DNA of 64,000 nt from Pandoraea horticolens (lineage in GTDB: Bacteria > Pseudomonadota > Gammaproteobacteria > Burkholderiales > Burkholderiaceae). The position numbers and the translations under genes are program-made. Of the stretch, positions 13,184-32,905 are shown piece after piece (position 1 is the stretch's first letter; each line of letters begins with the position of its first letter). Below the pieces are notes generated by a model that made no database searches, had not been told where the DNA came from, and saw only the letters and a list, made by a program, of their open reading frames with translations. The stretch covers positions 310,001 through 374,000 of the forward strand of contig NZ_CABPSM010000003.1 of NCBI RefSeq assembly GCF_902459555.1, read 5' to 3'.

Positions 13184-13260
13184 CTGCCCATAGCTCAGTT
13201 GGATAGAGCATCGGCCTTCTAAGCCGACGGTCGGGGGTTCGAATCCCTCTGGGCAGGCCA
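13184..13260 (+). tRNA. tRNA-Arg(TCT)
   Basis: A 77-nt cloverleaf: acceptor CTGCCCA/TGGGCAG, D-arm GCTCAGTTGGATAGAGC, anticodon stem TCGGC/GCCGA with loop CTTCTAA (anticodon TCT at 13218-13220), T-arm GGGGGTTCGAATCCCTC and encoded GCCA end. A TATAAT box lies at 13059-13064, far upstream. The 3' half (from 13214) is the core of the left attachment site of the integrated element, which restores the tRNA on integration. Confidence 0.97.
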
Positions 13261-13268
13261 GTAAAATC
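13214..13268 (+). repeat. attL, 55-bp attachment repeat within tRNA-Arg
   Basis: These 55 bases, from the anticodon arm through the tRNA 3' end and eight bases beyond, are repeated exactly at 32851-32905. The flanks differ on both sides at once. This is the footprint of tyrosine-recombinase integration into a tRNA 3' end. Confidence 0.95.
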
Positions 13269-13310
13269 CAAGGGCCTACGGTTGCCCGGTTCCATCGAGT
13301 CGCGTGTTCA

Positions 13311-13326
13311 TCACACTTTCATCACA
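13311..13326 (+). repeat. Candidate integrase arm-type site, left
   Basis: TCACACTTTCATCACA, just inside attL and before the first recombinase gene, matches TCACACTCCCATCACA at 32751-32766 just inside attR (14 of 16). Short repeats inside both ends are where tyrosine integrases bind their arm sites. This is inference from position. Confidence 0.45.
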
Positions 13327-13336
13327 GTGAGGACAC

Positions 13337-14344
13337 ATGGCGACTATCCGGAAGCTTGGCGCGAAGTGGCAATGCCAAGTGCGCAAGAAGGGGCACCCGC
13401 CTCGTACTCAGTCCTTCAGTACCCGGGCAGATGCCGCCCAATGGGGGCGTGAGCTTGAAGCGCAAATTGATCGCGGACAGTTCCTCCCTCCGCCTGTGCA
13501 CGGCGAGATTCTGGCGGCGTTGCTTGACCGCTACTGTGCTGAGGTATCCCCGACGAAGCGGAGCGGCAAGAGTGACCTCGGTCGGGCTAGGACGATCAAG
13601 CAGACCCTCGGCGCATACAGTCTTCCCGCGCTATCCCCGGCTGTGTTGGCTGAGTATCGGAACATGCGTCTGCGTGCAGTCGGTCCGCAGACCGTGATCC
13701 ATGAACTGAACCTCATAAGTCGTGCTTTGCGGCACGCCGTATCGGAATGGGGTGTCGCGTTGGCTGCGGGAATCCCAACGGCGCTGGTCAGGAAGCCGCA
13801 GAAACCTCCCGGCCGAACTCGTAGGGTGACGGAGACCGAAATGGCGGCAATCGGCCGTGCATCGCATTCTGCGGTGCTTGGGCTTGTCATCCGGTTTGCG
13901 GTCGAGACGGCAATGCGGCGCGGCGAAATCGCGGGGTTGTGCTGGGAGCATGTTGATCTACAGCGACGCACCGCGCACCTCCCGCGCACCAAGACGGATG
14001 TACCTCGCACCGTTCCTCTCTCGTCTGGAGCTATTGCTGTGCTGAAGGGAATCGGTCCGCGTGAGGCTGGCCTTGTGTTCGGGCTTGCTGCTGATTCGAT
14101 TACGCAGGCATTCGACCGTTCGTCGGCCCGTGCTCGAAATCTGTATGTGGGCGAGGGCGGAGCGAGTCCGGGATACCTGACGGACATTCGCTTCCATGAT
14201 TTACGGCACGAGGCGACGAGTCGTCTGTTCGAGCGGGGTCTTGCGATGATGGAGGTCGCAGCAATAACAGGCCATAAGACTCTCTCCATGTTGCAGCGGT
14301 ACACACACTTGCGAGCGGAGGACTTGGCTAAGAAGCTGGGGTAG
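13337..14344 (+). CDS. Tyrosine recombinase/integrase 1
   Basis: A 335-residue site-specific recombinase of the phage integrase family. The catalytic set is visible: Arg in ETAMRRGEIAGL, HxxR in FHDLRHEATSR, His in TGHKTLSMLQRYTHL and the nucleophile Tyr322. The N-terminal part (QCQVRKKGHPPRTQSF) looks like an integrase arm-binding domain. The start has AGGACAC before the ATG and lies 68 bp from attL, so this copy is best placed to be the element's own integrase. It is followed by two related genes in the same orientation, and all three end in nearly the same AKKLG tail. Confidence 0.93.
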   Translation: MATIRKLGAKWQCQVRKKGHPPRTQSFSTRADAAQWGRELEAQIDRGQFLPPPVHGEILAALLDRYCAEVSPTKRSGKSDLGRARTIKQTLGAYSLPALSPAVLAEYRNMRLRAVGPQTVIHELNLISRALRHAVSEWGVALAAGIPTALVRKPQKPPGRTRRVTETEMAAIGRASHSAVLGLVIRFAVETAMRRGEIAGLCWEHVDLQRRTAHLPRTKTDVPRTVPLSSGAIAVLKGIGPREAGLVFGLAADSITQAFDRSSARARNLYVGEGGASPGYLTDIRFHDLRHEATSRLFERGLAMMEVAAITGHKTLSMLQRYTHLRAEDLAKKLG

Positions 14345-14569
14345 CGCCAGTTCTCGTCTGAGAATATTGACACACTTGCGTGCGGATTATGTCTCGGTAT
14401 TCTGATCGGACAATCGTCACGTGACGGGTGGCGTAATCTCATATCGACAGCCGTATCGCTCAGGGCTTTGAAGTCCCACGCGGAACTTGGTCGTTTTCAC
14501 GCCGACCATGCAGAAGTGTGACACGGCAATGTCTCTCTATCGCTTCTATGCGAGGGAGGGCGTTGCCCT

Positions 14570-15568
14570 ATGGCGACCATCAGACGACGTGTCAGTCCCG
14601 CCGGGAAGATTAGCTGGACTGCGATGATTCGACGCAAAGGCTTCCCGGCACTATCGAAAACATTCCCCTCTAAAACGCTGGCGAAGCACTGGGTAACGGT
14701 GACGGAAGCTTCGATGATTGCCGGTACATTCATCGACCCACGCCCGGCGCAGGCTGCGATTCTGCGTGACCTATTCATCAGGTATCGAGACGAAGTTACC
14801 CCGAGTAAGCGTGGCCGTGCGGCAGAGACAGTCCGCATCAACTGGTTCATTCAACAGCCCATTGCTCAGTACAGCTTGGGGAACCTGAAGCCACCCGTGA
14901 TTGCAGCTTGGCGTGATGCACGACTTCGCACGGTCACAGGGAGCACTGTGAATCGCGACATGAATCTGTTGGGACATGTGCTGGAGGTCGCCCGTAAGGA
15001 ATGGGGTCTGCACATTCCCCTGAACCCCGTACACGATGTACGTCGCCCGCAGCACAACCCTGCCCGTGATCGCCGGTTAATGCCGGGAGAGGAGGCGCGA
15101 CTTTTGGCCGCGTGCCGGTCGGGGATTGGTGACTTCCTGTTTCCTGCTGTTGTGCTCGCCCTTGAAACCGGTATGCGGCGGGGTGAAATCATCGCTTTGG
15201 ACTGGAGGAAGATTGACACGGAGCGGTGCATAGCCCGCTTGGAAATGACAAAGAACGGGGAGAGGCGGGACGTACCTCTGTCCAGCCGTGCCGGCGAAGC
15301 ACTGAAGTCGGTAAAGACTCCGCACGACGGGCCGGTATTCAAAGGCTGGACGGCCAACGCATTCCGCCTTGCGTACATACGAGCCGTCGCCCGTGCCGGG
15401 ATTGCCGATCTCACGCTCCACGACTTGCGACACGAAGCTATCAGTCGCATGTTTGAGAAGGGGCTGTCCATGATGGAGGTAGCTGCCATCGCAGGTCACA
15501 AAACACTCGCGATGCTGAAGCGGTATACGCATCTCCGCGCCGAAGATCTGGCAAAGAAGCTGGGCTAA
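14570..15568 (+). CDS. Tyrosine recombinase/integrase 2
   Basis: A 332-residue paralogue of the preceding recombinase. Catalytic residues are intact: Arg in ETGMRRGEIIAL, LHDLRHEAISR, AGHKTLAMLKRYTHL and Tyr319. The N-terminus (RRRVSPAGKISWTAMI) differs from copy 1, suggesting a different arm-site or partner. GGGAGG lies upstream of the ATG. A 225-bp non-coding gap separates it from copy 1, while copy 3 follows 14 bp downstream, so copies 2 and 3 are probably co-transcribed. Confidence 0.92.
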   Translation: MATIRRRVSPAGKISWTAMIRRKGFPALSKTFPSKTLAKHWVTVTEASMIAGTFIDPRPAQAAILRDLFIRYRDEVTPSKRGRAAETVRINWFIQQPIAQYSLGNLKPPVIAAWRDARLRTVTGSTVNRDMNLLGHVLEVARKEWGLHIPLNPVHDVRRPQHNPARDRRLMPGEEARLLAACRSGIGDFLFPAVVLALETGMRRGEIIALDWRKIDTERCIARLEMTKNGERRDVPLSSRAGEALKSVKTPHDGPVFKGWTANAFRLAYIRAVARAGIADLTLHDLRHEAISRMFEKGLSMMEVAAIAGHKTLAMLKRYTHLRAEDLAKKLG

Positions 15569-15582
15569 CCGGGGGACTACAG

Positions 15583-16611
15583 ATGGCAAGCATTGTTGAA
15601 ATCAAACGAGGCTTCGGCGTGCGTTGGAAAGGGGTGGTTCGACGTGCAGGCGTGCCAACGCAAGTCGCATATTTCGACGTAAGGGATGATGCGGAGGAGT
15701 GGGTGCGTGTAGTTGATAACGACGCCCGCGAGCGGCAGAACGAGATCAAGCGACAGCAAGCACTGGACGCATTGCGCGAACGCAGTCGTAATGAGCATCG
15801 CACGTTCGGCGACGTACTTCATCGCTATTTGATAGAAATCGTGCCGCATAAACGTGGGGCCGATGTAGAAGCCACTCGTATCAAAGCGTTCTTGAAAACT
15901 CCGATCAGTAAGATATTGGTCGAAAGCCTGACGCAAGCGCACTTCGCGGCGTGGCGGGATGCCCGGTTGCGTTCGGTTGGCGGTTCGACAGTCAACAGGG
16001 ACTTAACGATTCTCTCCCATGTAATTCGGGTTGCTCGCGCCGAGTGGGATGTGCAACTTTCCCGGAACCCATTGCACAACTTCCGCAAACCGAAATCGAA
16101 TCCGCCCCGAGAACGCAGGCTCTCACCGGACGAAGAAGTTGCCCTACTCAATGCCTGTGCTGAAACGCGTAACCGGCACGTCGTCCCGGTCATTGTCCTT
16201 GCCTTGGAAACAGCGATGCGGATGGGGGAAATCGTGCATCTCGATTGGTCTCGCATAGATCTGGAGAGGCAATCGGCCTATCTAAGCGAGACTAAAACAG
16301 GAGTGCCTCGTGGCGTTCCGCTATCCACGCGGGCAGTTGAAATATTGGTACGTCTCGGGGTCAGAAATCGCGGACGGGTTTTCCGAGGGCTAACGGAGAA
16401 TGCATTAAGACACGCGTATGCACGTGCGGTTGAACGGGCAGGCATTAAGAACCTGACGTTCCATGATCTCCGACATGAAGCAACCAGTCGTATCGTGGAA
16501 AAAGGGCTAACCATGCTGGAGGTTGCAACGATCACCGGGCACAAAGATCTACGCATGTTGCAGCGGTATACCCACCTGCGCACGCAAGACTTAGCCAAGA
16601 AACTGGGGTAA
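15583..16611 (+). CDS. Tyrosine recombinase/integrase 3
   Basis: A 342-residue third paralogue. It keeps the Arg in ETAMRMGEIVHL, FHDLRHEATSR, TGHKDLRMLQRYTHL and the nucleophile Tyr329. GGGGGAC precedes the ATG 14 bp after the stop of copy 2. Together the three form a same-strand recombinase array resembling recombinase-in-trio layouts, but the three copies are much more alike than the distinct subfamilies in known RIT elements. All three look catalytically competent. Confidence 0.92.
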   Translation: MASIVEIKRGFGVRWKGVVRRAGVPTQVAYFDVRDDAEEWVRVVDNDARERQNEIKRQQALDALRERSRNEHRTFGDVLHRYLIEIVPHKRGADVEATRIKAFLKTPISKILVESLTQAHFAAWRDARLRSVGGSTVNRDLTILSHVIRVARAEWDVQLSRNPLHNFRKPKSNPPRERRLSPDEEVALLNACAETRNRHVVPVIVLALETAMRMGEIVHLDWSRIDLERQSAYLSETKTGVPRGVPLSTRAVEILVRLGVRNRGRVFRGLTENALRHAYARAVERAGIKNLTFHDLRHEATSRIVEKGLTMLEVATITGHKDLRMLQRYTHLRTQDLAKKLG

Positions 16612-17888: not shown

Positions 17889-18076
17889 GGTGCGGTTTCC
17901 TTGTGCTTTAAAAGAAACCCGCAACCCGTCGCCAAACGGGTGGGCGGGCACGCGGCAGGGTTGGCGAACCGGCGCACAAGGGAACCGGCAGGGGCGGACC
18001 CCTCCCCACCGTGGCCCGCCCATAGGAGGCGCATGGTGTACGGACGAAACAAGTCATCTGGGCGTGCGACCGCCCA

Positions 18077-18328: not shown

Positions 18329-18964
18329 ATGGCTGTGAGCTTCGGTCTTGCAAAGAAAATCATAGATCATCCGACCTACAATCTAGGCCTCGCACTTCCG
18401 TTTGTGGCGGCATTCTACTTGCTAAACGACACGGAGCCAGTTGTGCTACCGCTAATCGGGTATGTGTTCAGCGAGCAAGTGTCCGATGTACTGAAAATCA
18501 TTGGGGTGGCGTTCTATTACGCGGTCTTCCTAATGTTCTTTGTGCTCGCGGGGGCGCTGTCCCATATGACATCGATATCGAAGCTCTACTTCGCGTATCC
18601 GATCATGGTCATAGTTTTAACATTCGTAGCGTGGATCACTGACAGTGGGGCACCTAAGTTCAATCTGCTTTTTACTATCCTAGCCGTCGCTTATCTCGTG
18701 TTTTCCAAGGTGGATGAAGGCAACGTTTCACTCCTATTGGTGGGCGCGGTTGGCACTCTGGTTTCGTTGCTGTGCTTTGTCGCCGGCGTTTTATGGTTTG
18801 AGGAACACTACATATTTCAATCTGTTATCGCCGACCTCTTTGGGTTTAAGGGGCTCGCGCCGGAATCTCTGAAGATCGGATGGCCGATGTTGATTACGCT
18901 CGGTTATGTACTCTATTTCGCTATTTTCCAAACAAGTGAACTTTGGGGCGATCTCACTGCGTAA
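18329..18964 (+). CDS. Polytopic membrane protein, unknown function
   Basis: A 211-residue protein with about six hydrophobic segments (LGLALPFVAAFYLL, IIGVAFYYAVFLMFFVLAGAL, YPIMVIVLTFVAWI, LLFTILAVAYLVF, LLLVGAVGTLVSLLCFVAGVL and WPMLITLGYVLYFAIF). AGGACAG precedes the ATG. It is visibly less GC-rich than the core genes, indicating recent acquisition. I do not recognise the family. It overlaps the convergent KilA-N gene by 52 bp at its 3' end. Its place among phage-like genes is compatible with a cargo gene for exclusion or defence, without direct evidence. Confidence 0.65.
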   Translation: MAVSFGLAKKIIDHPTYNLGLALPFVAAFYLLNDTEPVVLPLIGYVFSEQVSDVLKIIGVAFYYAVFLMFFVLAGALSHMTSISKLYFAYPIMVIVLTFVAWITDSGAPKFNLLFTILAVAYLVFSKVDEGNVSLLLVGAVGTLVSLLCFVAGVLWFEEHYIFQSVIADLFGFKGLAPESLKIGWPMLITLGYVLYFAIFQTSELWGDLTA

Positions 18965-19323
18965 GTTTGACAGACGACCGAAATAGGCCGCTTTCTCACT
19001 ACCGGCGGCGGGGCCGTCACAAGCTGGTCGTAGGCGCGGATCACCTTCAGGTGGAAGGCCGGGCTGATCCACATTGCGTAGGCGTAGACCAGTTCCTTGA
19101 CGACGAACGTGCCGGGTACAGTTCCCCCGCGTTGGCTGTCAACCGGGGCAAACCGGGGATCGCCGGTTAGCTCCGTCACCAACTCGGCGGAGGTGGGAAG
19201 GCGCATGAACTCATTTGGAGCATGGCGTTTCATGCCACCCGCCGCCCGGTGAAGGTCATTCAGGCAGTACCGGCCCTCGGCGTCCTGACGGATACCGATG
19301 CCGGAAAGGACAAGGGCAGTCAT
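18913..19323 (-). CDS. KilA-N domain protein, phage antirepressor-like
   Basis: A 136-residue protein starting MTALVLSGIGIRQDAEG. The middle holds a KilA-N DNA-binding domain: GRYCLNDLHRAAGG, PNEFMRLPTSAEL, FVVKELVYAYAMWISPAFHLKVIRAYDQL. KilA-N proteins occur in phages and large DNA viruses as DNA-binding regulators and antirepressors. The last 25 residues read antisense through the end of the membrane protein gene and may be added by frame extension. It lies downstream of the giant virion-like gene on the same strand, past a terminator-like hairpin. Confidence 0.8.
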   Translation of the reverse strand: MTALVLSGIGIRQDAEGRYCLNDLHRAAGGMKRHAPNEFMRLPTSAELVTELTGDPRFAPVDSQRGGTVPGTFVVKELVYAYAMWISPAFHLKVIRAYDQLVTAPPPVVRKRPISVVCQTYAVRSPQSSLVWKIAK

Positions 19324-19483
19324 GCTCGCCCCGCCCCGGTCAAGCGACCGGTCTGCATCCGAGGAGCTAGAGCAGCGACCATCGCGTCGAACGTCGGGAA
19401 GCCCAAGGCACGGGCTGCGCGTGCTTACAAAACGGCGTGCAGCTATGGGCATGGGTATTTGAGCCGACCGGAATGCAGGAGGA

Positions 19484-19505
19484 GAAGCCCGCCGTGGCGG
19501 GCTTC
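19484..19505 (-). terminator. Terminator-like hairpin after the giant gene
   Basis: A perfect 10-bp stem GAAGCCCGCC/GGCGGGCTTC with a 2-nt centre lies 3 bp after the stop of the 1653-codon gene. The minus-strand 3' flank is pyrimidine-rich (TTCTCCTCC), a typical phage late-gene terminator layout with a weak U-tract. Confidence 0.65.
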
Positions 19506-19508
19506 CCG

Positions 19509-22500
19509 TCATTGCTCTGCTGCCAACGAATTGCTCAGGGCCGTGCCGAACACGGTATTCGACCCCGGCACCAACCGCCACATAGACCGAAGCTGCTTGT
19601 GGTAGTCGACCGGATCAGTCTTGCCCGGAAGGTGCCCCAGCGTTGCGCCTAGCGCCGTCGTACCCGCAGCCCCCGCCCCCCGCCCGATGTTCTGGAGGAA
19701 GCCGATTGCTGCGACCGGGCTGCTGCTGCCGTACGTCTGCCCACCAAAGATCGTATGCCCGAGGTCGAGGGTGTCAGGCAACAGGCCCGCCATGTTCACC
19801 ATGACGGCTACGCCGGTCGCCAACTTGATACCGGACAGGTTGTCGTCCAGATACTCCTGCTTCTTCTGGGCGTCCATCCCGACCGTGTTGGCTTGTACCT
19901 TGGCGTAGTACAGCATCGCGCCCCATGCCGTCGCCATCGTGAACCCGATTGCCGCGTGACCGTCACCGATGAATACGTTGCGGGCGAACTGCTTCTCAGC
20001 AGCCGTGACGCCAAAGCGGCGGAACTGCCCGATCAACTTCCCGAACTCCGACTCAGTAGCCCAGCGAGGGGTTTCACCAATCAAGGCGCGTTGCAGTACC
20101 TGCCAAGTGGCGCGGTGCAGTGAACCAATGAAAGCGTCCGCCGCGTACTGGTCGTCCCATTTGTCGAAGTTGATACCGTCACCCTTCTTCCGGCCGCCGT
20201 CGTGCTTCTCCATCTGCGTGCGGATACGGTCGATGTCCTGCGGCAAGATGCCCATGTCAGCGAGGCGCGCATCGGTGATGTGCCCCTTACCGTCACGAAC
20301 CTTTGACCAAAGCTCTTCCGTCAGAATAGGAAGAAAGCCGCGATGCATAATCTTCCCGACCAGATTCATGCCGGACAACGTACCCACTGCGCTAGCTGAT
20401 CTGTCCGCCAAGCGGTTCAGCGTACTACCTTCGGCAAGCACCGTTTCCGGCTTGAGGGCCGAATTGGTTGTCTGGTCGATGTGCATACGATGGTCGAGGC
20501 CGAGAGCACTCCCTGCGTATTCATGAAGAGTCTTCTTGATACCCGGCCCGGCGCTGTCGAAAATACCGGTAAACAGCGAGCGGAAGAAACCACCAACGCC
20601 AACCGCCGTAACAATCGCTCCGGCATCCGCTGCCCCGTTAAAGCCCAACTTACCCATCATCGTGACATACGCCCCGGTCTGGAGCAGCTTCGATGCACCG
20701 TGCTCCTGATTGTTCAGGTTGCCCTGAAGCGAGCGGATCAGGAAATGGATGTTGTCCACGTCCTGCGGCGTCGCACCGTCCTGACGCAACGCATCCAGCA
20801 GTGCATCGACGTGCTGCGGGTCACGCAGGTTGCGCTTGGCGAGGGCGATGTTGCCCGACCATTTGGCGGCACTACCATTGACCATGCGTCCGATATCGGT
20901 GTCGATGTAGTCGAGCATGCGGACACCGCCCTCGGTATCGAGCAAATCGAACTCCGTGCGGGTACGATCCTTGATTACGTCCGTCAGACGCTGCTTGAAC
21001 TCGGTTGCCATTTCCGACGACACCTTCGTACCGCGCCAGTCCTCCAGCAACAGGTCGGCGGCCACCGCACCGAAGTGGTTGTCGGCACCATCGATCCGCG
21101 ACTGCGGGTCTTTCATGGTCTGGTTCAAGTAGTGGTCAACCATGCGCCCGGCCTTCTCCGAGGCGGATGCACGCAGTTCCGCCAGTGCTTCCGGCGTGTG
21201 CGGGCCGGTCGCCAGCATATTTTCCAGCGCTGGGCCAACGACCTTTGCTTCGTACTGGCGACGCAGGATTGCCTTGAACGCATTGAACTTCGGCACGTCG
21301 TTGACGTACAGGTCGTTCAACGCCCGGAAGTCCCACTTGTACGGCATGTAGCCAACCCAGCCGCCGCCGTGGATGCCATCGCTTTGCGCGTCACCGACTG
21401 CCTTACCGTTCTCGGCCAGCGTACGCCAGTAGCCGTCGAGCGCGCCCGCGTACTCGCGTACAAGCGGGTCAGCCGTGGAGACGTATTCCGTGCCCGCCTG
21501 GACTGCTGCCCGGTGCTTCAGTCGTTCTTCCGCAATCAGCTTCCCTACGCGCTTCTGTGCCTCCTCGCCCATACCGACCGTAGCGGCAGCCAACTCCTTC
21601 GGCGTGAACAGCTTTGGCCAAATGCGCCCGTGGATTTCGAAGAATGGCCCCTTAAACGAGTGATTCAGAATCTCCCGCTCAATTGCAGCCGTCGAGGCGA
21701 ACTGGCGATTGGTGCCGTCTGCGGACTCTCCAAGCCATGCGGCCCACATACGGACACCTTTGCTCTTGGACTGAGACAACTTCAGGCCCACGCTATCCGC
21801 GATGTCACCAAACATCTTGTAGGCCTTGGTGTTACGTACGACGTTATCGTAGTAGCCCTCTGCCCGCGCACGCATCTTGGCCGTGGCCTCCGGGCGCACC
21901 TCTTGCCAGTCGTCCATTTGCTTCTTGAACTCCTGAGCAAGCGCTGACCGCACAATGTCGTCACGCACCGGGGCGCTGTTGCGTACACCCGTTGCGGCGG
22001 TGTCGTGCAGCGGCGTGTCGATCAGGGTGTCAGCCAAGCCCACAGCCTTGAGCAAGGCATTGGTCTGGTTCGCGGTGATACCCAGCAGGCTACGGATCAG
22101 GTCAACCGCCTTGGTCAGCAGGTGCTCGCCTTTCGACTTCATTGCGGCCAGATGGTCGATGAACTCAGACTTACCGCTGTACAGCCCGGCTACGAACTCA
22201 TCGACGTTCGACAGGTAATACCGGGTCTTCGCGTCGTTGCCCTTGTAACCGGATGCCGCTTCAGCGCGCAGCTTCTCCAGTTCCCCGGCGATCTTGCCGT
22301 GGACCGAGGCCGGGTTCGCCTTACCGAACTCCAGCTTCTTCACCGTGGCCGCGTGTGCCAACTCATGCAGCAGCACGTCGTCGCCGGCCTTGCCTCCGAG
22401 CGACACCGCGTGAGTCTTCGGGTTGTACGCGCCGGTTGCCGAGTCGTCGGCACGGCGGACAACAGACACGTCACCACGCAATTGCTCGTGTAGGCGTCCG

Positions 22501-24606: not shown

Positions 24607-25578
24607 TTACGGTCGGCGGGATTGAATGAACGCCGAGGCCATTGCCGCACCCTCGGGCAGAAACGGATTTCTACTCAGGATCTCGGCAGTGCGCGTTCGC
24701 AACGCCAGGTGATCGGCCGCAGTCTGCCTAACGCACTCCTGCAACTCGCGAAGACTTTTTGCTATGCGAGCGGGACGCACCGACGACTCACGCTCCGCCA
24801 AGTCCTCCGGGGCGCACTGACTTAGAGCCTTCGCATCCGCCGCAATAAACTGCCCGATGGAGATTCCGCGAAGGGCCAGCACTGCGATTAGGGGGACATC
24901 AGCGCCTGCGATCCGAATGCAAAGATCGTTGTGGGGTTTGCCCGTTGCGGCCCGCTCGCGACGACGGTACTTGTACAGCCGTCCGTCGAGTTTGCAACCC
25001 GCCGCGAGAAATTCCGTAGGACTCTCCCGCTTGGTTCGGGTGAGTGCGCGCTTAATGTCCGTCGCGGCGGCCACCGTCGAACCGTCTTTGCCATGTTCCG
25101 CGAGGATACGCTGCACCTCTGTTATGGATTTTTGAGACATGGGCTTGCTGAATCGCTTCGACGAAAGTGGAGCGGGCAGTCCCATGCGCTTAGCGACGAG
25201 GATAGCCAGTTCAGCGTTGTTGAGGCGACAGTGCTCCGGGCATTCACACAACATTGATGCAAGCTCGATCTCCCAGCCGGTCGAGCCATCGTCCTCCCAG
25301 ACCCACCCGAATGCTTTCACGGTTTTTCCGTGTGATTCCGCATAGCGTTCGACCGACTCCGTCGCCTCCGCCAACATTCCCCGACACGCACTGACGGCCG
25401 TGTCCCTCAATCGAGCCTCGTCTGCGGCGACTGCCGCCTTCAGTTGGTCTTGCGTAACCACGCATCTAGCATCATTAGGCTGAATTTCACCCCCGCGAAA
25501 CATGGAGAAATCGCCAATAGTCGACCCGTGGGAGGGGGCTAGGCTTGGTTCTGCAATGGCTAATTCAGATTTTTTCAT
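24607..25578 (-). CDS. Hypothetical phage-type protein
   Basis: A 323-residue protein that I do not recognise. It is mostly helical and charged. A CECPEHC cysteine cluster lies in the first half, and later comes RALTRTKRESPTEFLAAGCKLDGRLYKYRRRERA, which looks nucleic-acid-binding. It has no signal peptide or membrane helix. It starts immediately after a hairpin (25589-25617) that could modulate translation, as the ribosome-binding site is weak. It lies upstream of the giant gene with a 136-bp gap. Confidence 0.6.
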   Translation of the reverse strand: MKKSELAIAEPSLAPSHGSTIGDFSMFRGGEIQPNDARCVVTQDQLKAAVAADEARLRDTAVSACRGMLAEATESVERYAESHGKTVKAFGWVWEDDGSTGWEIELASMLCECPEHCRLNNAELAILVAKRMGLPAPLSSKRFSKPMSQKSITEVQRILAEHGKDGSTVAAATDIKRALTRTKRESPTEFLAAGCKLDGRLYKYRRRERAATGKPHNDLCIRIAGADVPLIAVLALRGISIGQFIAADAKALSQCAPEDLAERESSVRPARIAKSLRELQECVRQTAADHLALRTRTAEILSRNPFLPEGAAMASAFIQSRRP

Positions 25579-25700: not shown

Positions 25701-26378
25701 CTACCAACCGGCAGCCGCCAACAGCGCTTGCATGCCCGGATTTCTCTCTGCGAGCCGGAATAGGTCCATTGGCGGCATGAGTCGTAAGTCCGGGCAATTG
25801 AAGGCACAAGTAGGCGGCTCGCAGCCGAAATGGTCGGGCGTGAACGGTGACGGGGTGAGGCGTCGATGGCCCGGTGCTGACCAGACAGCCGCATCGCAAC
25901 GGGCAGAAAGCCCGCCGGTCGGGGTAGCCGTCCCGTGCCAACGTGTGTCAGCCCCAACGCCGTCCCATTGGCCCGCAGTGAAGTGGGCACGTTCGCCTGT
26001 TCGCTCGCGGCGCACGGTCTCGAGATGCGAGAGCCAGCCGCCGAGACTACGTTTCGCGGGCCACGGAAAGGCCCTGTTGCAGTTATCAAGCCGGATGGGA
26101 CGACGAACCAACTGGCAGTCGTAGCAAGCACAGTCTCGGACACGCCGCCGGGTGGAGCCGCACTTGCGGCACGTCTTGCCGCTGAACCACGACCGTCCGT
26201 TAAGCAGGGCATCTATCCGGTCTGGGTACATGGTCTGCTGGCGGAGTGCTAGGGCGAACGCGTGATCCCGACGGGCCGCGTCTCGATGCTGGCGGGTCAA
26301 CACCTTCGCAAACGGGACTACTTGATGAAGTGCGAACTGGCCGGACGCTTTCCGTTTGCTACCGGCAGGCGAAGTCAT
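25701..26378 (-). CDS. Zinc-ribbon hypothetical protein
   Basis: A 225-residue protein, unknown family. A Cys4-type cluster CRKCGSTRRRVRDCACYDC lies near residues 70-88, suggesting a zinc ribbon. The rest is rich in Arg, Pro and Trp and has no membrane segment. Its ATG overlaps the stop of the upstream gene by four bases (ATGA), so the two are translationally coupled. Small Zn-ribbon proteins of this kind are common in phage early regions, where they may bind DNA or RNA polymerase; the role here is unknown. Confidence 0.6.
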   Translation of the reverse strand: MTSPAGSKRKASGQFALHQVVPFAKVLTRQHRDAARRDHAFALALRQQTMYPDRIDALLNGRSWFSGKTCRKCGSTRRRVRDCACYDCQLVRRPIRLDNCNRAFPWPAKRSLGGWLSHLETVRRERTGERAHFTAGQWDGVGADTRWHGTATPTGGLSARCDAAVWSAPGHRRLTPSPFTPDHFGCEPPTCAFNCPDLRLMPPMDLFRLAERNPGMQALLAAAGW

Positions 26379-27079
26379 TGCCCGCTGGAATCGACTTGAG
26401 GCTCTAGGAGTGCTCTGCGTCCTGCCGCGTCCGGTCGCGAGTGGCCGCCGCCCGCTTGGCGCACGTTCAACGTCTCCGGCAAACGTTTGTACTTGCGCAT
26501 GCTCCGCTCGGTTACGCGAACCGCCGTGAGTAGGCAGGACTTCTCGATGTCAAACAGCCCGTTCGAGCATCCGCCACCGAGGTATGTCAGCGAGCCCGCG
26601 ATTTCGTCGGCCGTCCACGGGTTCGGGATTGCCGGGCTGCTTGATCCCACGACCTTGCAAAGCTCGGCGCGTCGGGTCTGGTACTTCGCAACAAACTCGT
26701 GGCGCTCAGGTGTGGTCAATGAGGGCCATGCGTCCTGTGCGTCCCGGATCATCTGACCCAGTTCGTGTTCCAAACGCTTCCGTTCAACGGCACTTGATGA
26801 TGCAGGCTCCGGCACGCGCTCCTCGCAGGCGCGACATACCATGCTGCTACTTGCATCGTCGTAGTACACGGCCCCGAATTCCCTATCGCGCCTGTGCGAC
26901 TTGTCTACGGTCATCCTCCATCTGCGCTCGAACTGGCCCACGGTGCGGAAGCAGTCCGCGCACCTATCGTCCTGCCGCTCCCGGATACGCTCCTGAGCGT
27001 CCCTTTCGCGGTCGTGCTGAGTTGGCTTGCCGGGGAACTCTCGACCGTCCACGCCTCGGATGTAGTTCTTTGCTCGCAT
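26375..27079 (-). CDS. Zn-finger protein, HNH/endonuclease VII-like
   Basis: A 234-residue protein. Residues about 35-85 contain CADCFRTVGQF, then TVDKSHRRDREFGAVYYDD and MVCRACEERV. This order of two CxxC pairs around a His-containing strand recalls HNH/recombination endonuclease VII folds, but the usual catalytic histidines are only partly present. I chose the third of three nearby ATGs because GGGAG lies 7 nt before it. It is coupled by ATGA to the Zn-ribbon gene downstream and follows a 65-codon gene by 2 bp. Confidence 0.6.
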   Translation of the reverse strand: MRAKNYIRGVDGREFPGKPTQHDRERDAQERIRERQDDRCADCFRTVGQFERRWRMTVDKSHRRDREFGAVYYDDASSSMVCRACEERVPEPASSSAVERKRLEHELGQMIRDAQDAWPSLTTPERHEFVAKYQTRRAELCKVVGSSSPAIPNPWTADEIAGSLTYLGGGCSNGLFDIEKSCLLTAVRVTERSMRKYKRLPETLNVRQAGGGHSRPDAAGRRALLEPQVDSSGQ

Positions 27080-27081
27080 GG

Positions 27082-27279
27082 TCATTCTCCCGTGTGGCAT
27101 TGTGCGCCCGGCTTACGGCCGGGTTTGGCTCGGGATGCCCAAGTCGGCAGGCTTCCGGTTAGCACTTCTACAGCCCGGCGGTAGGCGGCCAGTGCCGTCG
27201 GGCTAGTGCGGCGAAGGCCATGTGCGTACGCTGCCTCTTTTGCATTTTCTTCGAGGGGGTGTAGTGGTTGCTTCAACAT
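27082..27279 (-). CDS. Small hypothetical protein, first gene of the phage-like operon
   Basis: A 65-residue basic protein starting MLKQPLHPLEENAKEAAYAHGLRR. TGGAGA lies 9 nt before the ATG; an upstream TTG is less likely. No known domain is seen. Its stop is 2 bp from the next start, so it opens the leftward operon running to the giant gene. The ~170 bp upstream hold short dyads but no promoter I can call firmly. Confidence 0.55.
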   Translation of the reverse strand: MLKQPLHPLEENAKEAAYAHGLRRTSPTALAAYRRAVEVLTGSLPTWASRAKPGRKPGAQCHTGE

Positions 27280-27451
27280 GCTTAGAGTCTCCAAAGTTGA
27301 ATTCGGACCAGTTAGTCCTTTTAGGTGACCAAATTGCCATGTCTCTGATTCACGTCAGATTGCAAGCGGTGAATTCGAGCATGGGTTATCTGTCTTTCTA
27401 GGGCGCCGAATTAGGAGACGGGGTAATTCTCCAAGCCGCATGTCCGAAATG

Positions 27452-27511: not shown

Positions 27512-28087
27512 CTATGCGGCTTGCGCGGCCTTGAGGATGGTGGGGTGGGAGACGCCGTACTCGGCGGCGAGTCCCCGAGCGGTTGCCCCGGCGGCGATCC
27601 GCGCCCGCACTTCGGCCTTCTGTTCGTCGGTGAGCGAGGCCCGCCGTCCGAGCTTCTTGCCCTCGGCCTTCGCCCGCGCCAGCCCGGCGTGCGTTCGTTC
27701 GATCAACAGGTCACGCTCGAACTGCGCCACGGCGGCGAGCACAGTCATGTGCAGCTTGCCGGAGGCGCTTGTCAGGTCAACGCCCTTCAAAGCTAGGCAA
27801 TGCACATGCACCTTAGCCGCTGCCAGCGACTCCACGGTTGCCAACACGTCGGCGGTGTTCCGGCCCAGCCGGTCTAGCTTCGTAACAACGAGCGTGTCGC
27901 CCTCATCCAGCTTTTCGAGCAACTTAGCGAAGCCGGGCCGCTCTGTTCCGGGGACGCTGCCGGAGATAGTTTCGGTGATGGTGTGCCGGGGCAGGATAGT
28001 GAAGCCTGCTGCCTGTACTTCGAGCAACTGGTTATCGGTAGTCTGTTCGGCGGTGGAAACCCGCGCATACAAGAACGTGCGGCTCAT
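27512..28087 (-). CDS. Serine recombinase (resolvase/invertase family)
   Basis: A 191-residue small serine recombinase. The nucleophilic serine is Ser10 in FLYARVSTAEQ, conserved arginines lie in VTKLDRLGRNTADVL and FERDLLIERTHAGL, and a C-terminal Hin-type helix-turn-helix (ARGLAAEYGVSHPTILKAA) binds DNA. Length and order match Tn3-resolvase/DNA invertase proteins. The start MSRTFLYARVS has CCGGAGG upstream. Inside an element that already has three tyrosine recombinases it may resolve multimers or invert a segment; no clear crossover site pair was found by eye. Confidence 0.92.
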   Translation of the reverse strand: MSRTFLYARVSTAEQTTDNQLLEVQAAGFTILPRHTITETISGSVPGTERPGFAKLLEKLDEGDTLVVTKLDRLGRNTADVLATVESLAAAKVHVHCLALKGVDLTSASGKLHMTVLAAVAQFERDLLIERTHAGLARAKAEGKKLGRRASLTDEQKAEVRARIAAGATARGLAAEYGVSHPTILKAAQAA

Positions 28088-28191
28088 GGCAATGCGCCTC
28101 CGGTAATCAATGGTGGAAATCATTGTATGTGGTAATCAATTTGCCATCAAGGATTTCTTTACCGGATTGCGGGTGCGCTTCGGAATGGAAA

Positions 28192-28689
28192 GAAACCGGA
28201 CGATTGATTAACGACGCATGAGCATGGAGCGATGCGCGGGGAAGCCCGGCCGATAGAGACGACCCAGCAAACCGGCCAGCAGCCGGGAACGGTGGGGATT
28301 CGAGGGGGAGGCGACCTACGCTGTGTACAGGCGATCAGTGGTCAGCAGATGGATACCGGCAGGCAACCGGCATCGCCAGAAACCGGACGGTTATTCGGCC
28401 GACCCTGGCACGGGGGAAACCGGCTCGGCGGCGACGGCGCAATCCCCGCAGAAAATCGTACCAAAATTTGGCCGGAGGGACGCCGGACGATGAACAGTGC
28501 CCTTCAAGCTGTTTGAACGTGCACCCTTTTGGGGCGGATACATGATATAGTGCTCGTAGGTCAATCAACCACTAGATGTTGTGGTTGTTGATCTTCCGCA
28601 GCTTCAGCGGATGGGAACCCGCACCAATGCGCGAACATCGGCGCGGGTTGGTAGCTAAGCCCATACGGACCGAGCTAGTAGGAAACCGG
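28192..28689 (+). repeat. Dispersed GAAACCGG repeats (iteron-like)
   Basis: GAAACCGG occurs at 28192-28199, 28379-28386, 28416-28423 and 28682-28689. CAAACCGG is at 28268-28275, and looser copies (CAACCGG, TACCGG) lie between. All are in the same orientation within about 500 bp, mostly in a stretch without a convincing gene (28088-28540). They could bind a regulator or a replication protein; spacing is irregular, so this is not a classic iteron array. Confidence 0.4.
28543..28551 (+). promoter_or_regulatory. Extended -10 promoter of the small-protein cassette
   Basis: TGATATAGT matches an extended -10 element (TGnTATAAT). No good -35 lies at 17 nt. An imperfect inverted repeat (TCAACCAC/GTGGTTGTTGA region, about 28560-28593) follows in the leader. 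Confidence 0.45.
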
Positions 28690-28773: not shown

Positions 28774-28784
28774 GAAATACTGTT

Positions 28785-29228: not shown

Positions 29229-29242
29229 AGGCGAGGCAGCAT

Positions 29243-29911
29243 ATGGAGGGGGCACCTACCATTGACGCGGAGGAAAAAAGGGAACGAACGCGGCTTTATG
29301 AGCGGCATCGTGATGACCTATCGAAGCGGCAGCTATCCAACGCGGAGAACCTCGATAAGACGATTCTGACCTATTCCGGTGCTGGGTTAGCGCTGTCTTT
29401 GGGTTTCCTCAAGGACTTTGTGCCGGTCACGGGGGCGAAAATACCTTGGGCACTATATGGGTCGTGGGGAGGCTTTACCCTCGCAATGGTTCTGGTCGTT
29501 GTTTCGTATATGCTCAGCTTGCACGTGATTGACCGCCAGCTTGACCGTGCACGGAGATACTATCTTGAGGGCGATGACGACGCCCTGACTGAGTCAGGAT
29601 GGCAAGACTTTTGCGCCCGACATTTGAACACTTGGATGTCAGCAGCCGCGTTCGTTGTTGCGCTTTCACTGACGACGATTTTTGTATCGGCAAACTTAAG
29701 CGAGGTGAATATGGCAAACTCAAAAGGCGTTCGCGGCATCGCCCAAGATGGCGTAACGGGCATGGCGATGCAGAGAATCACTCCTCAGGCGACTACTGAA
29801 CAGCGAGGTATAACAGGTAGCGCGATGCAGCCCGTAACCTCAGGTTCCAGTTCATCGCCTGCCGCATCGTCGCCCCCTTCAGGAAGTACGACACCAGCAT
29901 CCAAGGGCTAG
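29243..29911 (+). CDS. Three-helix membrane protein with repeated cytoplasmic tail motif
   Basis: A 222-residue protein, unknown family. After a charged N-terminus (EEKRERTRLYERHRDDLSKRQ) come three hydrophobic helices (about residues 42-62, 72-98, 131-150). The C-terminal tail holds two copies of G-(V/I)-T-G-x-A-M-Q-x-(I/V)-T at 170-180 and 189-199, then a low-complexity Ser/Pro tail. GAGG precedes the ATG, 14 bp after the stop of the 59-codon gene that carries the same motif. A membrane effector plus small-protein cassette at the end of an integrative element suggests a defence or exclusion module, which is inference. Confidence 0.65.
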   Translation: MEGAPTIDAEEKRERTRLYERHRDDLSKRQLSNAENLDKTILTYSGAGLALSLGFLKDFVPVTGAKIPWALYGSWGGFTLAMVLVVVSYMLSLHVIDRQLDRARRYYLEGDDDALTESGWQDFCARHLNTWMSAAAFVVALSLTTIFVSANLSEVNMANSKGVRGIAQDGVTGMAMQRITPQATTEQRGITGSAMQPVTSGSSSSPAASSPPSGSTTPASKG

Positions 29912-30069: not shown

Positions 30070-30804
30070 CTACTTTTGATGGGCTATGCAGAGGGATAGA
30101 AACGCAGCGATGCATAGCCGGTCAAGGAAGTAGGCCGTACTGCCTCCAGTCGTGCTGCCCCGAAGCAGCATGCCGGCGAACGTGGGGCGGCTAATTGTGG
30201 CGTCGAGGTGCGTGACCTGAAAGACCGGTGCCCCACTGAAGCCATCAAGGCTACCTATCTCGTCAGATCGGTTCACGTTTATCTCATGGATTCCAATGCG
30301 TGAAGTCTCCCCGATATATCGCGAGTCAGCCAGCACCGCCGCAGTTTCGAAGTGCTTTCGCTCATAGTCCACATCGCGCCGGTCATTCGGCCAACCGTGG
30401 AAACCGTAGTTGTCGCCAGCGTCGTACGGCAGCAACGGCTCATTCGGGCCGAGCTTGTACGGTTGGTACTCACCGAATAGTTCGGCCTCCAAGCGCGGCA
30501 TATCTACTTCCATCGCAATGATGTCAAACCGCTCGTCGTCATCGGCGGCGGGCGCACTCGGCGGGCGAAAATGGAATCGGCGCACCGGGAGCATCTGGCT
30601 TGAGTCCGGCCGATATTGCAGCCTCATACGCCCGACCTCGTAACCTGCGAGGACGTGGCGTGCCGTGATTCCATAGACAGTTCCTGCGATATCAACCAGA
30701 AAGGCGCTGCCTCGTATGGACAAGGGGAAGTCGGCGTCATCATTCAAGAGAACCACGGGGCGGCTGCACTTGAACACGCTGACTAGGGGGACAGGCTTGT
30801 ACAT
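30070..30804 (-). CDS. Trypsin-like serine protease domain protein
   Basis: A soluble S1-type (trypsin/DegP-fold) peptidase of 244 residues from the chosen start. The triad is visible: His in YGITARHVL, Asp in RFDIIAMEVD, and Ser in GSLDGFSGAPVF. There is no signal peptide, so it would act in the cytoplasm. I use the ATG at 30804 (MYKPVPLVS); the ATG at 30885 would leave only 24 bp to the divergent gene, too little for two promoters. Cytoplasmic trypsin-like proteases next to nucleotide-acting enzymes are a known theme in phage defence loci; partnership with the divergent gene is inferred. Confidence 0.75.
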   Translation of the reverse strand: MYKPVPLVSVFKCSRPVVLLNDDADFPLSIRGSAFLVDIAGTVYGITARHVLAGYEVGRMRLQYRPDSSQMLPVRRFHFRPPSAPAADDDERFDIIAMEVDMPRLEAELFGEYQPYKLGPNEPLLPYDAGDNYGFHGWPNDRRDVDYERKHFETAAVLADSRYIGETSRIGIHEINVNRSDEIGSLDGFSGAPVFQVTHLDATISRPTFAGMLLRGSTTGGSTAYFLDRLCIAAFLSLCIAHQK

Positions 30805-30909
30805 GCTTGCACACGCTCGCGAGAAAATGAACAGCGCAAAATTCGGCTCAAGGCGCAATTCCTTCGAGGGTAGAATCGTCCGCATCTACACACGCTACGG
30901 GGGCACAGT

Positions 30910-31737
30910 ATGATCGATAAAACTGAGGTGAAGCCATCACATTGCGGCCTTGTAATGCCGATCTCCAACACTGACCCCTACCCGAACGGGCACTGGGCAG
31001 ACGTTAAAGCGATAATTACGCAAGCGGTACAGCAAATTGCGGACTACGAACCGTTTACTGTCGATCTTGTGAGCAGTTCCGATTCCGGCGGAGTGATTCA
31101 GAAGCAGATCCTGCACCAACTGTATTCTTCAGATATCGTCATATGCGACGTTAGCTCAAAGAATCCGAACGTTATGCTTGAATTAGGTATTCGGCTCGCG
31201 TTCGATAAACCCGTCGTGCTAATTTAGGATGATCGCACACCGTTCATCTTCGACACTGGGCCTCTGTTGCACCTCCAATATCCAGCCGACCTGCGTCACA
31301 ACGCCATTGAGGCATTCAAGAAGGAACTAGGGGCCAAGGTTAAGGCGCTTCACCAGAAGTCGAGAGCCGGGGGCGACCACCTGTCTTATCTCCAGAGCTT
31401 CGGTCCGTTCCAAGTCGCCAAGATTCGCACTGAAGAAGTCTCGCCTGATGTTCTGGTGATGGGGATGCTGAGGGATATTCAAACTGAGCTAAGTTGGATT
31501 CGCAACTACCAATCAATGTCGCCTTCTGTGCATACAACATCCAACGGCCTTCTTGCGGAGATAGTCGCCCGTGGCGGCATGCCCGACAGCAGTGCAAGCG
31601 AGCAGGGGGCATCGTCTCAACAGATGCTAAGTACTGCTGGCATCCAAGCCTCGCGTAGCGAGGCTATGCAGAAAGCGATCGATTTGGCGGCTCGTCTGAA
31701 AAACGCGTCAAAGAACCATGGGAGTAATCGTGAATAG
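30910..31737 (+). pseudogene. Nucleoside 2-deoxyribosyltransferase/TIR-like protein, interrupted by in-frame TAG
   Basis: One continuous 275-codon frame broken only by TAG at 31225-31227. Upstream: CGLVMPISNTDPY, SSDSGGVIQKQIL, IVICDVSSKNPNVMLELGIR and AFDKPVVLI. Downstream, in the same frame: DDRTPFIFDTGPLLHLQYP. The CDVSxxNPNVMxELG core is typical of nucleoside 2-deoxyribosyltransferase-like domains used as NAD- or nucleotide-acting sensors in bacterial defence. The stop falls right after the conserved strand, where the family has a sense codon (often Lys). It is either a recent nonsense mutation, a sequencing error or a suppressed codon. A second in-frame start after the stop (TTG at 31267) would lack the active site. 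Confidence 0.75.
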
Positions 31738-31895: not shown

Positions 31896-31961
31896 CGTCG
31901 CTGCTGAACATTGACGAGGATTGGCGCTGCTTTCTCACCCAAATTCATTTCAAGAAATTTC

Positions 31962-32738
31962 ATGGCAACTTACTTGTTCGCATGGAACCCAAATAGGTGG
32001 GAATGGGTGGATCAAGCGGAGGCGATTGTTCGAATCAACAACCATGAGCAATACGACATATATTGGAGTTGCGGACGCAACAGAGGAATCAATGTCGGCG
32101 ATACATTCCTTCTGATGAAGCTTGGGGTCGTCCCTAAGGGGATTGTAGGTTACGGCTATGTAGCTTCTGCGCCATACGAATTGCCGCACTGGAATGCTGA
32201 AAGGGCGAGTCGTGGGGAACTCGCGTTGCGTTGTGACCTGTTCTTCCAAGCGCTTTCAGGTTGGCCGCTCGTGCCACTAGGCTTGTTGCAAGAGAGATTC
32301 CCGAGCTATAGGTGGACTCCGCAGGAGGGCGGCATGTCCGTTCCTGACGCAATTGCCACCGATGTGTTGTCTCTCGTCCACTTCGACGCTGTCCTCAAAA
32401 GGTCAGACGTTGAGCGTTATGTGGAAGGGAGGAGTAGGCGCGTCACGGTAAAAACCTACGAACGAAGTGCTGCTGCACGCCAAGCGTGCATCGCCCATCA
32501 CGGTTTTGACTGCGCAGTATGCGGCTTTTCATTTGCACGGGTATATGGGGCACTTGGCAGAGGGTATGTTGAAGTGCATCACCTAAAACAAATTGCGGAT
32601 CTCGGTGACGACGCCCTTGTTGATCCCGTTAGGGACCTTCGGCCTGTCTGCTCGAATTGTCACCGAATGCTTCACAAACAGCGACCTCCGCTATCGATTG
32701 AAGAGCTACGAACGCAAATGAACGGCACGTCACCCTGA
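31962..32738 (+). CDS. EVE-HNH fusion, candidate modification-dependent (type IV) restriction endonuclease
   Basis: A 258-residue two-domain nuclease. Residues about 1-75 resemble an EVE/PUA-like base-reading domain (YLFAWNPNRWEWVD, IYWSCGRNRGINVGDTFLLMKLG, GIVGYGYVASAPYE). Residues about 175-250 are an HNH nuclease: CAVCGFSF, YVEVHHLKQI, DPVRDLRPVCSNCHRMLH, with both zinc CxxC pairs and the catalytic His. EVE-HNH proteins are known to cut DNA carrying modified cytosines, so this would restrict phage DNA with such bases. The start MATYLFAWNP is preferred over one 51 bp upstream. It is the last gene before attR. Confidence 0.85.
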   Translation: MATYLFAWNPNRWEWVDQAEAIVRINNHEQYDIYWSCGRNRGINVGDTFLLMKLGVVPKGIVGYGYVASAPYELPHWNAERASRGELALRCDLFFQALSGWPLVPLGLLQERFPSYRWTPQEGGMSVPDAIATDVLSLVHFDAVLKRSDVERYVEGRSRRVTVKTYERSAAARQACIAHHGFDCAVCGFSFARVYGALGRGYVEVHHLKQIADLGDDALVDPVRDLRPVCSNCHRMLHKQRPPLSIEELRTQMNGTSP

Positions 32739-32750
32739 TGCCCGCACTAA

Positions 32751-32766
32751 TCACACTCCCATCACA
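32751..32766 (+). repeat. Candidate integrase arm-type site, right
   Basis: TCACACTCCCATCACA matches the left site at 13311-13326 with two differences. The wider 21-bp sequence (32749-32769) recurs with a single mismatch at 17326-17346 inside the element. Confidence 0.45.
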
Positions 32767-32774
32767 CCGCCCGC

Positions 32775-32850
32775 TATAATCCGTTCATACACGCGACTCA
32801 GTTGGATTGAAGGCAAGGGGCTCCCAGCCCCGCTGCCGCCTAAAGCGAGC
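32775..32850 (+). other. Promoter and degenerate tRNA-like 5' half ahead of attR
   Basis: CGCTATAAT (TATAAT at 32775-32780) resembles the tRNA-Arg promoter context at 13059. It is followed by CTCAGTTGGAT (32797-32807), identical to the tRNA D-arm. After that come a hairpin (AGGGGCT/AGCCCCG) and the 3' tRNA half in attR. No intact cloverleaf forms. It may be a relic of an earlier tRNA copy carried by the element, or it could drive a chimeric RNA. Confidence 0.45.
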
Positions 32851-32905
32851 GCCTTCTAAGCCGACGGTCGGGGGTTCGAATCCCTCTGGGCAGGCCAGTA
32901 AAATC
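32851..32905 (+). repeat. attR, 55-bp attachment repeat
   Basis: Exact copy of 13214-13268, containing the anticodon arm, T-arm and 3' end of tRNA-Arg(TCT). It is the original host 3' end displaced by integration. The following ~515 bp (32906-33420) contain no gene that I can support. Confidence 0.95.

Follow-up and report, generated by a model that had tools for sequence, protein, structure and literature searches.

An element at tRNA-Arg(TCT) in Pandoraea horticolens

We analysed a 64,000-nucleotide stretch of the Pandoraea horticolens genome (contig NZ_CABPSM010000003.1, positions 310,001 to 374,000; the window), which contains a 19,637-bp element bounded by exact 55-bp direct repeats of the 3' end of a tRNA-Arg(TCT) gene (Table 1). 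An earlier note, made from the letters of this DNA, had placed an element with exact 55-bp attachment (att) repeats at both ends in this tRNA gene. Both repeats were recovered, and the insertion was confirmed by ARAGORN and by an unoccupied site in a related genome. The repeat comprises the 3' part of the tRNA and the bases after it. ARAGORN found a single tRNA in the window, and only the first repeat copy belongs to a whole tRNA; the second is a tRNA fragment, which rules out that the repeats are two unrelated tRNA copies, a possibility raised in the same note. The whole genome holds two full copies of the repeat and six other matches at 77–82% identity, which are probably other tRNA genes.

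A query of the left flank and the tRNA matched 31 of the 32 genomes of the genus (genomes and loci of the comparison set carry G and L numbers). In G005 (L112), window positions 12055–13260 correspond to 3–1198 and window positions 32851–32997 to 1152–1298 (82% identity). The tRNA thus runs directly into right-flank-like sequence in G005, which indicates an unoccupied site, and two other genomes, G021 and G014, are occupied at the same tRNA or repeat. The exact repeats and the unoccupied site indicate a discrete, site-specific element, as phage satellites are. The GC content is 0.61–0.65 to the left of the element and 0.53–0.65 inside it, with the minimum at the right end.

The recombinases reported earlier proved to be three tyrosine integrases in a row (int1 to int3) and one serine resolvase. 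A minus-strand operon, p70-p241-p225-p323-gp16, ends in a giant gene, and the right end carries putative defence cargo.

Table 1. Features of the element in the window.
Feature	Position	Strand	Evidence or remarks
tRNA-Arg(TCT), integration target	13184..13260	+	ARAGORN, Rfam RF00005
attL, exact 55-bp direct repeat	13214..13268	+	
int1, tyrosine integrase	13337..14344	+	
int2, tyrosine integrase	14570..15568	+	46–51% to integrases of T7-like phages
int3, tyrosine integrase	15583..16611	+	
C4 antisense RNA	17936..18027	-	RF01695, 61.5 bits vs gathering score 45
211-aa protein, likely cargo	18329..18964	+	Membrane-like by eye; no family match
KilA-N gene, reads as truncated	18913..19581	-	PF04383, 3e-18
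gp16-type internal virion (ejection) protein, 1653 aa	19509..24470	-	SLT domain, phrog_342
p323, protein without assigned function	24607..25578	-	Relatives in L134, L131–L133, L135, L140
p225, CxxC core protein	25701..26378	-	12 of 299 genomes of the family, own included
p241, CxxC protein	26375..27100	-	
p70, small protein	27082..27294	-	Look-alikes in L151, L160 (by eye), L171 (by motif)
Promoter-like motif of putative helper	27389..27411	-	Head of the p70-p241-p225-p323-gp16 operon
Serine resolvase/invertase, core gene	27512..28123	-	
Genome-end junction of T7-like putative helper	28375..28475	-	87% over 103 bp to G012 prophage; matches joined Paku ends
222-aa protein, cargo	29243..29911	+	Membrane-like by eye
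271-aa protein	30070..30885	-	Weak LmuA match (9e-5)
TIR-effector/deoxyribosyltransferase-like gene	30910..31737	+	Two open reading frames (30910–31227, 31267–31737); 1e-5
HNH endonuclease	31911..32738	+	Pfam 6e-5; weak PADLOC type IV match (2e-4)
attR, exact 55-bp direct repeat	32851..32905	+	

Ejection genes and phage signals in ten related elements

The giant gene, noticed earlier as one huge virion-like gene, matched phrog_342 with 618 bits over residues 4–1651 and carries an N-terminal SLT transglycosylase domain (Pfam). By these profile matches it is a T7 gp16-type ejection protein. Within the genus, full-length matches were found only in its own genome and in G012, and three other matches were short. 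In G012 the gene belongs to a complete T7-like prophage, which spans 41,321 bp, is flanked by 49-bp repeats at tRNA-Val and encodes capsid, portal, tail and TerL proteins as well as an RNA polymerase and a DNA polymerase. The gp16 of the window is 91% identical to that of the G012 prophage in amino acids and 83% in nucleotides, and the DNA match is bounded to window positions 19481–24508, a stretch that covers the gene, its leader and a short trailing part. The window gene is intact, and the ratio of nonsynonymous to synonymous divergence (dN/dS) between the two was 0.058 with a dS of 0.94. These values indicate that the gene was not freshly copied from this prophage and that constraint acted along part, at least, of the path between the two.

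We compared the window with Burkholderia phage Paku (MZ326863) using tblastn. Eleven Paku proteins (capsid, portal, two tail tubes, gp14, fibre, TerL, endolysin, RNA polymerase, polymerase and helicase; that is, those other than gp15, gp16 and the integrase) gave no match in the 64 kb, in agreement with the earlier observation that capsid, terminase, portal and tail genes are lacking.

A search with p323 led to an element in G247 (L134) with two integrases, gp16, p225, p323, a gene for a 178-aa protein and a resolvase. It also has tRNA-Arg(TCT) and TIR cargo of the bSEFIR type, and the order of p225 and p323 is swapped relative to the window. The ten further genomes with p225 were examined as 11 stretches. 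In G148, G092, G045, G146 and G151, the slot beside p225 is occupied by a gp15-type core protein and not by gp16; four of these five proteins scored 366–559 bits against phrog_3883, and that of G151 (L156) was recognised by homology. In regards to gp15, eight of the 299 genomes of the family were positive, namely the G012 prophage and seven putative satellites, which adds G099 (gp15 with a truncated gp16) and G156. A contig from IMG/VR, L185, carries gp14, gp15 and a piece of gp16, and is the only one of the elements with gp14.

The set comprises ten elements: the window, L134, L151, L152, L153, L154 (with L173), L156, L160, L171 and L185. All have at least two tyrosine integrases (the second in L153 and L156 recognised by eye), a small common gene set and at least one T7-like core-protein gene (gp14, gp15 or gp16). 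The resolvase is present in all ten (weakly in L160, E 5e-5), p225 in nine, and the 178-aa protein in seven (not in the window, L154 or L156). The nine genome-borne elements belong to genus codes g1, g3, g11, g15, g20 and g24.

Direct repeats were found at both ends of nine of the ten elements: tRNA-Arg repeats of 54–56 bp in the window, L134 and L171, tRNA-Ser repeats of 72 and 79 bp in L153 and L156, 51-bp repeats in L185, a perfect 138-bp repeat in L160 and near-perfect repeats in L151 and L152, these last three at the same kind of gene end. One integrase of each element tracks the insertion site, and the other resembles the phage integrase. Relatives of int1 are found at tRNA-Arg(TCT) in L134 (56%), L171 (58%) and the locus L108 (77%, broken), and in L154 (55%), where the tRNA of that genome lies on contig L173; an 84% identical integrase is found in L151, L152 and L160 at their shared type of gene end. 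The int1 gene adjoins the whole tRNA in the window (13337) but sits at the far end in L134 (1640) and L171 (18037), so that the att core is reversed relative to int1 despite 56–58% integrase identity.

Eight elements are 11.4–13.6 kb long and that of the window is 19.6 kb; the G156 element is split over contigs L154 and L173, which were taken as one, and has no length for that reason. By arithmetic, three units of the eight elements amount to 34.1–40.8 kb, or 80–96% of Paku, and two units of the window element to 39.3 kb, or 95% of the 41.3-kb G012 prophage.

To compare the elements with phages, 14 Paku proteins were searched against all ten by tblastn. Only the core proteins (gp14, gp15 and gp16) and the integrase matched; capsid, portal, tail tube, fibre, TerL, endolysin, RNA polymerase, polymerase and helicase gave no match. 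Conversely, of 39 IMG/VR loci with gp15, all but L185, one of the ten elements, have two or more further virion genes, and no satellite gene was found in the stretch examined of these 38. The p225, resolvase and 178-aa proteins had no match in the G012 stretches or in the 38 IMG/VR phage loci; Paku was not searched for these three.

The supported branches of a gp15 tree (eight elements, 21 phages) force six changes between element and phage labels, as compared with a mean of 7.1 for shuffled labels, of which 102 of 500 were as low as six. In a quick gp16 tree (two elements, 21 phages), the two elements pair with different phages, giving two changes of a possible two. The ejection genes of the elements are, in these trees, scattered among those of T7-like phages. 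A label change may be a gain or a loss and is not a proven capture, so exchange in both directions is possible. The phages in the trees were 20 loci (L182–L187, L189–L202 and L205, without L185) and G012; outside the trees were L188, which is again the G012 phage, L203 and L204, where the contig end interrupts the gene, and L206–L221. Identity to Paku is 79% for the gp16 of L134, 74% for the gp15 of L160 and 38% for the gp16 of the window.

Two kinds of phage signal were then compared, with letter shuffles of the sequence or the query as nulls for motif distances and junction scores. Most of the T7-like phages tested have a short motif that stands both ahead of the capsid gene and behind gp16; the two copies have at least 18 of 22 bases in common in 19 of 23, in a survey run without a chance control (the L200 pair looks like a terminator). 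The motif differs between lineages, and from its place and repetition we infer that the phage RNA polymerase uses it as its promoter. In its G012 form, the motif has one site in the window (27411–27389, minus strand), at the head of the operon, and none in 100 shuffles. A 20-base form, with at most one mismatch allowed, has five sites across 32 genomes: the G012 prophage holds four of them and the window the fifth; a reversed-motif control gave none. In the other elements, L171 matches the motif of the L184 phage in all 24 bases, L154 differs from that of L189 by one mismatch, and L156 matches L191 over 56 bp around the motif (E 4e-7); L151 has four mismatches to the L186 motif, a pairing found after the fact. 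In these four elements and the window, the lineage of the motif is the tree neighbour of the ejection gene (for L154, of the gp15 on L173). A search of the G012 prophage for repeated 20-mers missed the motif, which was later read from intergenic regions, and a loose pattern, TT-N(14-16)-GACACA, was not used as evidence. A second, more degenerate motif at window 27335–27312 (minus strand) has six mismatches, within the shuffle range.

The second signal is the joined ends of the phage genome. In L152, an alignment to the final 37 bases of Paku continues, one base on, with Paku bases 2–69. The joined Paku ends beat the best of 30 shuffled queries in eight of the ten elements (111 vs 35 in L152; 40 vs 32 in the window, at 28471–28408, minus strand). 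The G012 prophage has its junction about 1 kb from its own end (59229–59184 of the joined stretch), and this aligns with window 28475–28375 at 135 vs 37. The junction of the window lies on the operon strand, beside the resolvase and upstream of the operon. Among 14 further loci, L173 included, L159 was slightly above chance, L109 was one point above the null and the rest were at or below it. A repeat at 28.25–28.48 kb, considered as a possible Ash/Icd coding region, gave no Pfam match and matches the genome-end junction instead. Another copy of the junction (147 vs a null of 30) lies at L120:11512–11617 in G021, between predicted tRNA genes and outside any definable element. The element of the window thus contains a candidate signal for induction by a helper, the promoter motif, and one for packaging, the genome-end junction.

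A proposed satellite of T7-like phages

We interpret the element as a satellite of temperate T7-like podophages that would be induced by the helper RNA polymerase, packaged by means of the helper end sequence and equipped with its own ejection protein; we give this reading a probability of about 0.8. The helpers are likely Autographiviridae of the Okabevirinae type, such as Paku and the G012 prophage. The insertion site, the gene content, the motif, the junction and the pairing of lineages in five elements are direct observations on which this reading builds. The earlier description of the element as satellite-like and outside the known classes was right as far as tested, and is sharpened here by naming T7-like temperate phages as the likely helpers. 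The note had missed this helper, the promoter motif, the genome-end junction and the kinship of the giant gene with that of a complete prophage.

The following course of events is proposed. When a helper infects or is induced, its single-subunit RNA polymerase would transcribe the satellite operon from the motif and may also prime satellite replication, and an integrase would excise the element. The helper terminase would cut satellite concatemers at the junction, with two units per particle for the window element and three for the others. The satellite gp16 would join the internal core of the helper particle and be ejected first, so that satellite DNA is delivered by a satellite-encoded protein. 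In T7, transcription normally completes genome entry, and gp16 presumably clamps the DNA. The T7 proteins gp14–gp16 make up an internal core whose ejection builds a DNA channel, and with gp16 missense mutants the whole genome can enter independently of transcription (PMC8954989). Because the T7 core builds the channel and gp16 mutants alter entry, DNA delivery is the most plausible target of the satellite; because T7 entry is normally completed by transcription and gp16 presumably clamps the DNA, an own gp15 or gp16 may let satellite DNA enter fully, or may block entry of the helper, and these are the most likely benefits. The defence cargo and the C4 RNA would protect host and element.

A bolder proposal, which we hold tentatively and at slightly less than even odds, concerns the family as a whole. 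Its members would supply one or more of gp14, gp15 and gp16, swapped in from their current T7-like host phage, often with the promoter of that phage, and the particles with satellite DNA, or else the whole burst, would thereby receive a satellite-encoded ejectosome through which concatemers enter without transcription, helper genomes perhaps being shut out.

Several observations weigh against the satellite reading. Excision, induction and packaging of the element, and the role of the ejection protein, are deduced from sequence. No resident helper was found, as a search of the own genome with the window gp16 returned only its own copy. The low dN/dS of gp16 is pairwise and may reflect the phage side. 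Four of the 12 p225 genomes (G144, G211, G226 and G265) have no ejection gene in the stretch examined, and neither do L131–L133, which carry p323 and the resolvase, so the ejection gene is typical and not universal; L171 has no p225 match. At 19.6 kb, the element of the window exceeds the others by 6 kb. No junction was found in L156, L154 or L173. Regarding the motif, its identity as a promoter rests on place and repetition, without a chance control, and the 20-base pattern was trimmed to the bases matched by the window; its 14-base core with three mismatches was not above chance in the window (2 vs 2.09). Four of the ten elements (L134, L160, L152 and L185) gave no motif match, the candidates in L151, L156 and L153 are within the shuffle range by distance alone, and the best match of L153 is not its tree neighbour. 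Some genes are broken, both in the window (KilA-N, TIR-like) and in relatives (gp16 of L171, integrase of L108).

Among the alternatives, the one that survives best, although we consider it unlikely, makes the element a defence island and its ejection protein a weapon. Triggered by the RNA polymerase of an invader, the protein would poison the assembly of the core or keep T7-like phages from superinfecting, and spread by phages would be incidental. A helper promoter would make the ejection gene phage-triggered, several relatives carry defence-type genes, and the ejection alleles adjoin different phages in the tree. This alternative leaves unexplained the junction in eight of the ten elements and the clustering of eight element sizes at 11.4–13.6 kb; it can also hold in addition to the satellite reading.

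It is more improbable still that the element is the debris of a T7-like prophage, reduced by deletions to an integrase, a promoter, the genome end and gp16 and then filled up with host genes. In favour of this, the element follows the phage genome in the order of end junction, operon, ejection gene and integrase; int2, at 46% to Paku, is similar to the integrase of the phage; and some genes are broken. Against it, ten elements from at least six genera have in common a non-phage set (p225, the resolvase, often the 178-aa gene, and a second integrase) together with flanking repeats, and eight of them are of similar size. None of the 38 phage loci carries this set in the stretch examined, and gp16 is intact with a dN/dS of 0.058. 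The earlier note had named a fragment of a complete prophage as what would overturn its claim; the content looks instead like an architecture that recurs in nine other elements. An old origin from a T7-like phage is possible, and ongoing decay fits poorly.

An ordinary integrative element moved by generalised transduction or conjugation, with the phage genes as accidental cargo, is very improbable, since the motif and ejection gene of one phage lineage together with the junction are unlikely to be accidental and no relaxase or conjugation gene was found among the 25 window open reading frames scanned with Pfam, even if relatives of p225, p323 or the resolvase occur in stretches examined without an ejection gene (L131–L133, L155, L157 and L159). 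Chance repeats were also considered as an explanation of the element and were rejected.

We compared the satellite reading with known classes of mobile element. The capsid, portal, terminase and tail genes of a prophage were absent, and the relaxase and mating-pair genes of an integrative and conjugative element (ICE) had no Pfam match in the same scan. According to the Paku tblastn and the family scans, the element lacks genes for a particle of its own, as a satellite does. P4-type satellites are about 11–12 kb long, about one third of the helper genome, and combine a tRNA site, a C4-type RNA and a defence hotspot. Points of agreement here are approximately the size and its ratio to the helper genome, the tRNA site, the C4-type RNA (RF01695, 61.5 bits in the window) and defence cargo. 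P4 itself depends on a myovirus helper and uses a primase and capsid-size factors, its characteristic genes being alpha primase, Sid, Psu and delta/epsilon; none of these proteins had a Pfam or PHROG match in the window open reading frames scanned. Phage-inducible chromosomal islands (PICIs) are integrase-led islands mobilised by temperate phages, and the capsid-forming type (cf-PICIs) makes capsids. AlpA/Stl, Pri-Rep and the small terminase of PICIs had no Pfam or PHROG match in the window open reading frames scanned, and, unlike cf-PICIs, the elements carry only core proteins. Paku and the G012 prophage are the nearest relatives of the promoter motif, genome ends, ejection genes and int2-type integrase, but they are full phages of 41–43 kb with replication, capsid, tail and packaging genes, unlike the element.

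Another parallel is PICMI of Vibrio, described in passages of PMC10803314 as a small integrative satellite with defence genes and no capsid-remodelling gene. PICMI is packaged as a concatemer of helper size, which is a proposal from sequence for the element here; that PICMI concatemers fill helper capsids is a precedent for our arithmetic of unit sizes. The helper of PICMI is a virulent Vibrio phage, and the same passages mention no ejection protein. The AlpA, prim and fis genes of PICMI have no counterpart among the window open reading frames scanned, and the insertion site here is tRNA-Arg. By the features tested, the predicted anatomy is that of a phage satellite distinct from PICIs, P4-like satellites, PICMI, ICEs and prophages.

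Our literature search, which left subscription journals mostly outside, found no published description of such a family and no satellite family tied to T7-like phages. If the reading is true, the satellite is tied to its helper by an ejection protein, a genome-end sequence and a promoter of the phage RNA polymerase, and would represent a new mode of hijacking, at DNA delivery. Its ejection proteins, interchangeable in nature, would help to find out which of the T7 core proteins governs DNA entry. The family would also explain how defence islands of one class, those borne by tRNA genes, may travel, and offer three sequence handles (promoter, junction and core gene) for proposing helper–satellite pairs from sequence alone.

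Regulators, cargo and neighbouring loci

C4 antisense RNA is an immunity regulator of the P1/P4 type. In addition to the window, it was found with Rfam in L156, L154 and L108, and it was absent from the other seven elements. With the KilA-N gene, which reads as truncated, it accounts for the phage-type regulators proposed earlier. The right end had been described as packed with anti-phage genes; the HNH endonuclease, the split TIR-like gene and the weak LmuA match bear this out in part, and "packed" overstates it here. The HNH protein, which we take to have an EVE-like N-terminus, is perhaps a modification-dependent restriction enzyme, and the 271-aa protein is presumably protease-like in appearance. 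Defence cargo is clearer in some relatives (RmrA and TIR in L156, bSEFIR in L134).

In regards to the other operon genes, p241 had no relative in 248 other genomes of the family, p323 and p241 had no tblastn match in phages, and none of 40 pattern matches to p323 in viral contigs was confirmed by alignment. Scans for sigma-70 promoters and terminators were near the shuffle level. A conserved, probably non-coding block is shared by L160 (7891–8031), L185 (4271–4356) and the early region of Paku (1044–1220); it was also seen by eye in L134, and no Rfam family reached the gathering score at the block.

The stretch at L159:7952 (G211) has a resolvase 84% identical and p225, no ejection gene in the stretch examined and a weak junction (41 vs 34). 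The G021 locus at the same tRNA as the window element (L108, G021:C1:4512001–4526000) is a 7.8-kb relative with a broken integrase, C4 RNA and TIR-type cargo, including a 460-aa fusion of TIR and a DnaB-type ATPase and a one-reading-frame relative of the split TIR-effector-like gene. Its genome-end junction scored 118 vs a null of 30, and it had no ejection gene match. In G014 (L109, G014:C11:50001–64000), two copies of the att repeat enclose 4.3 kb of DNA, which contains a Drt2 reverse transcriptase (628 bits) and an int1-like gene that is truncated. To the right of attR, window positions 32906–42227 encode short-chain dehydrogenase/reductase (SDR) enzymes and regulators at lower GC content, and are also variable among genomes. 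In G003, sequence matching the window starts again at window position 42229, about 0.6 kb past the tRNA, which indicates that the tRNA is a wider insertion hotspot.

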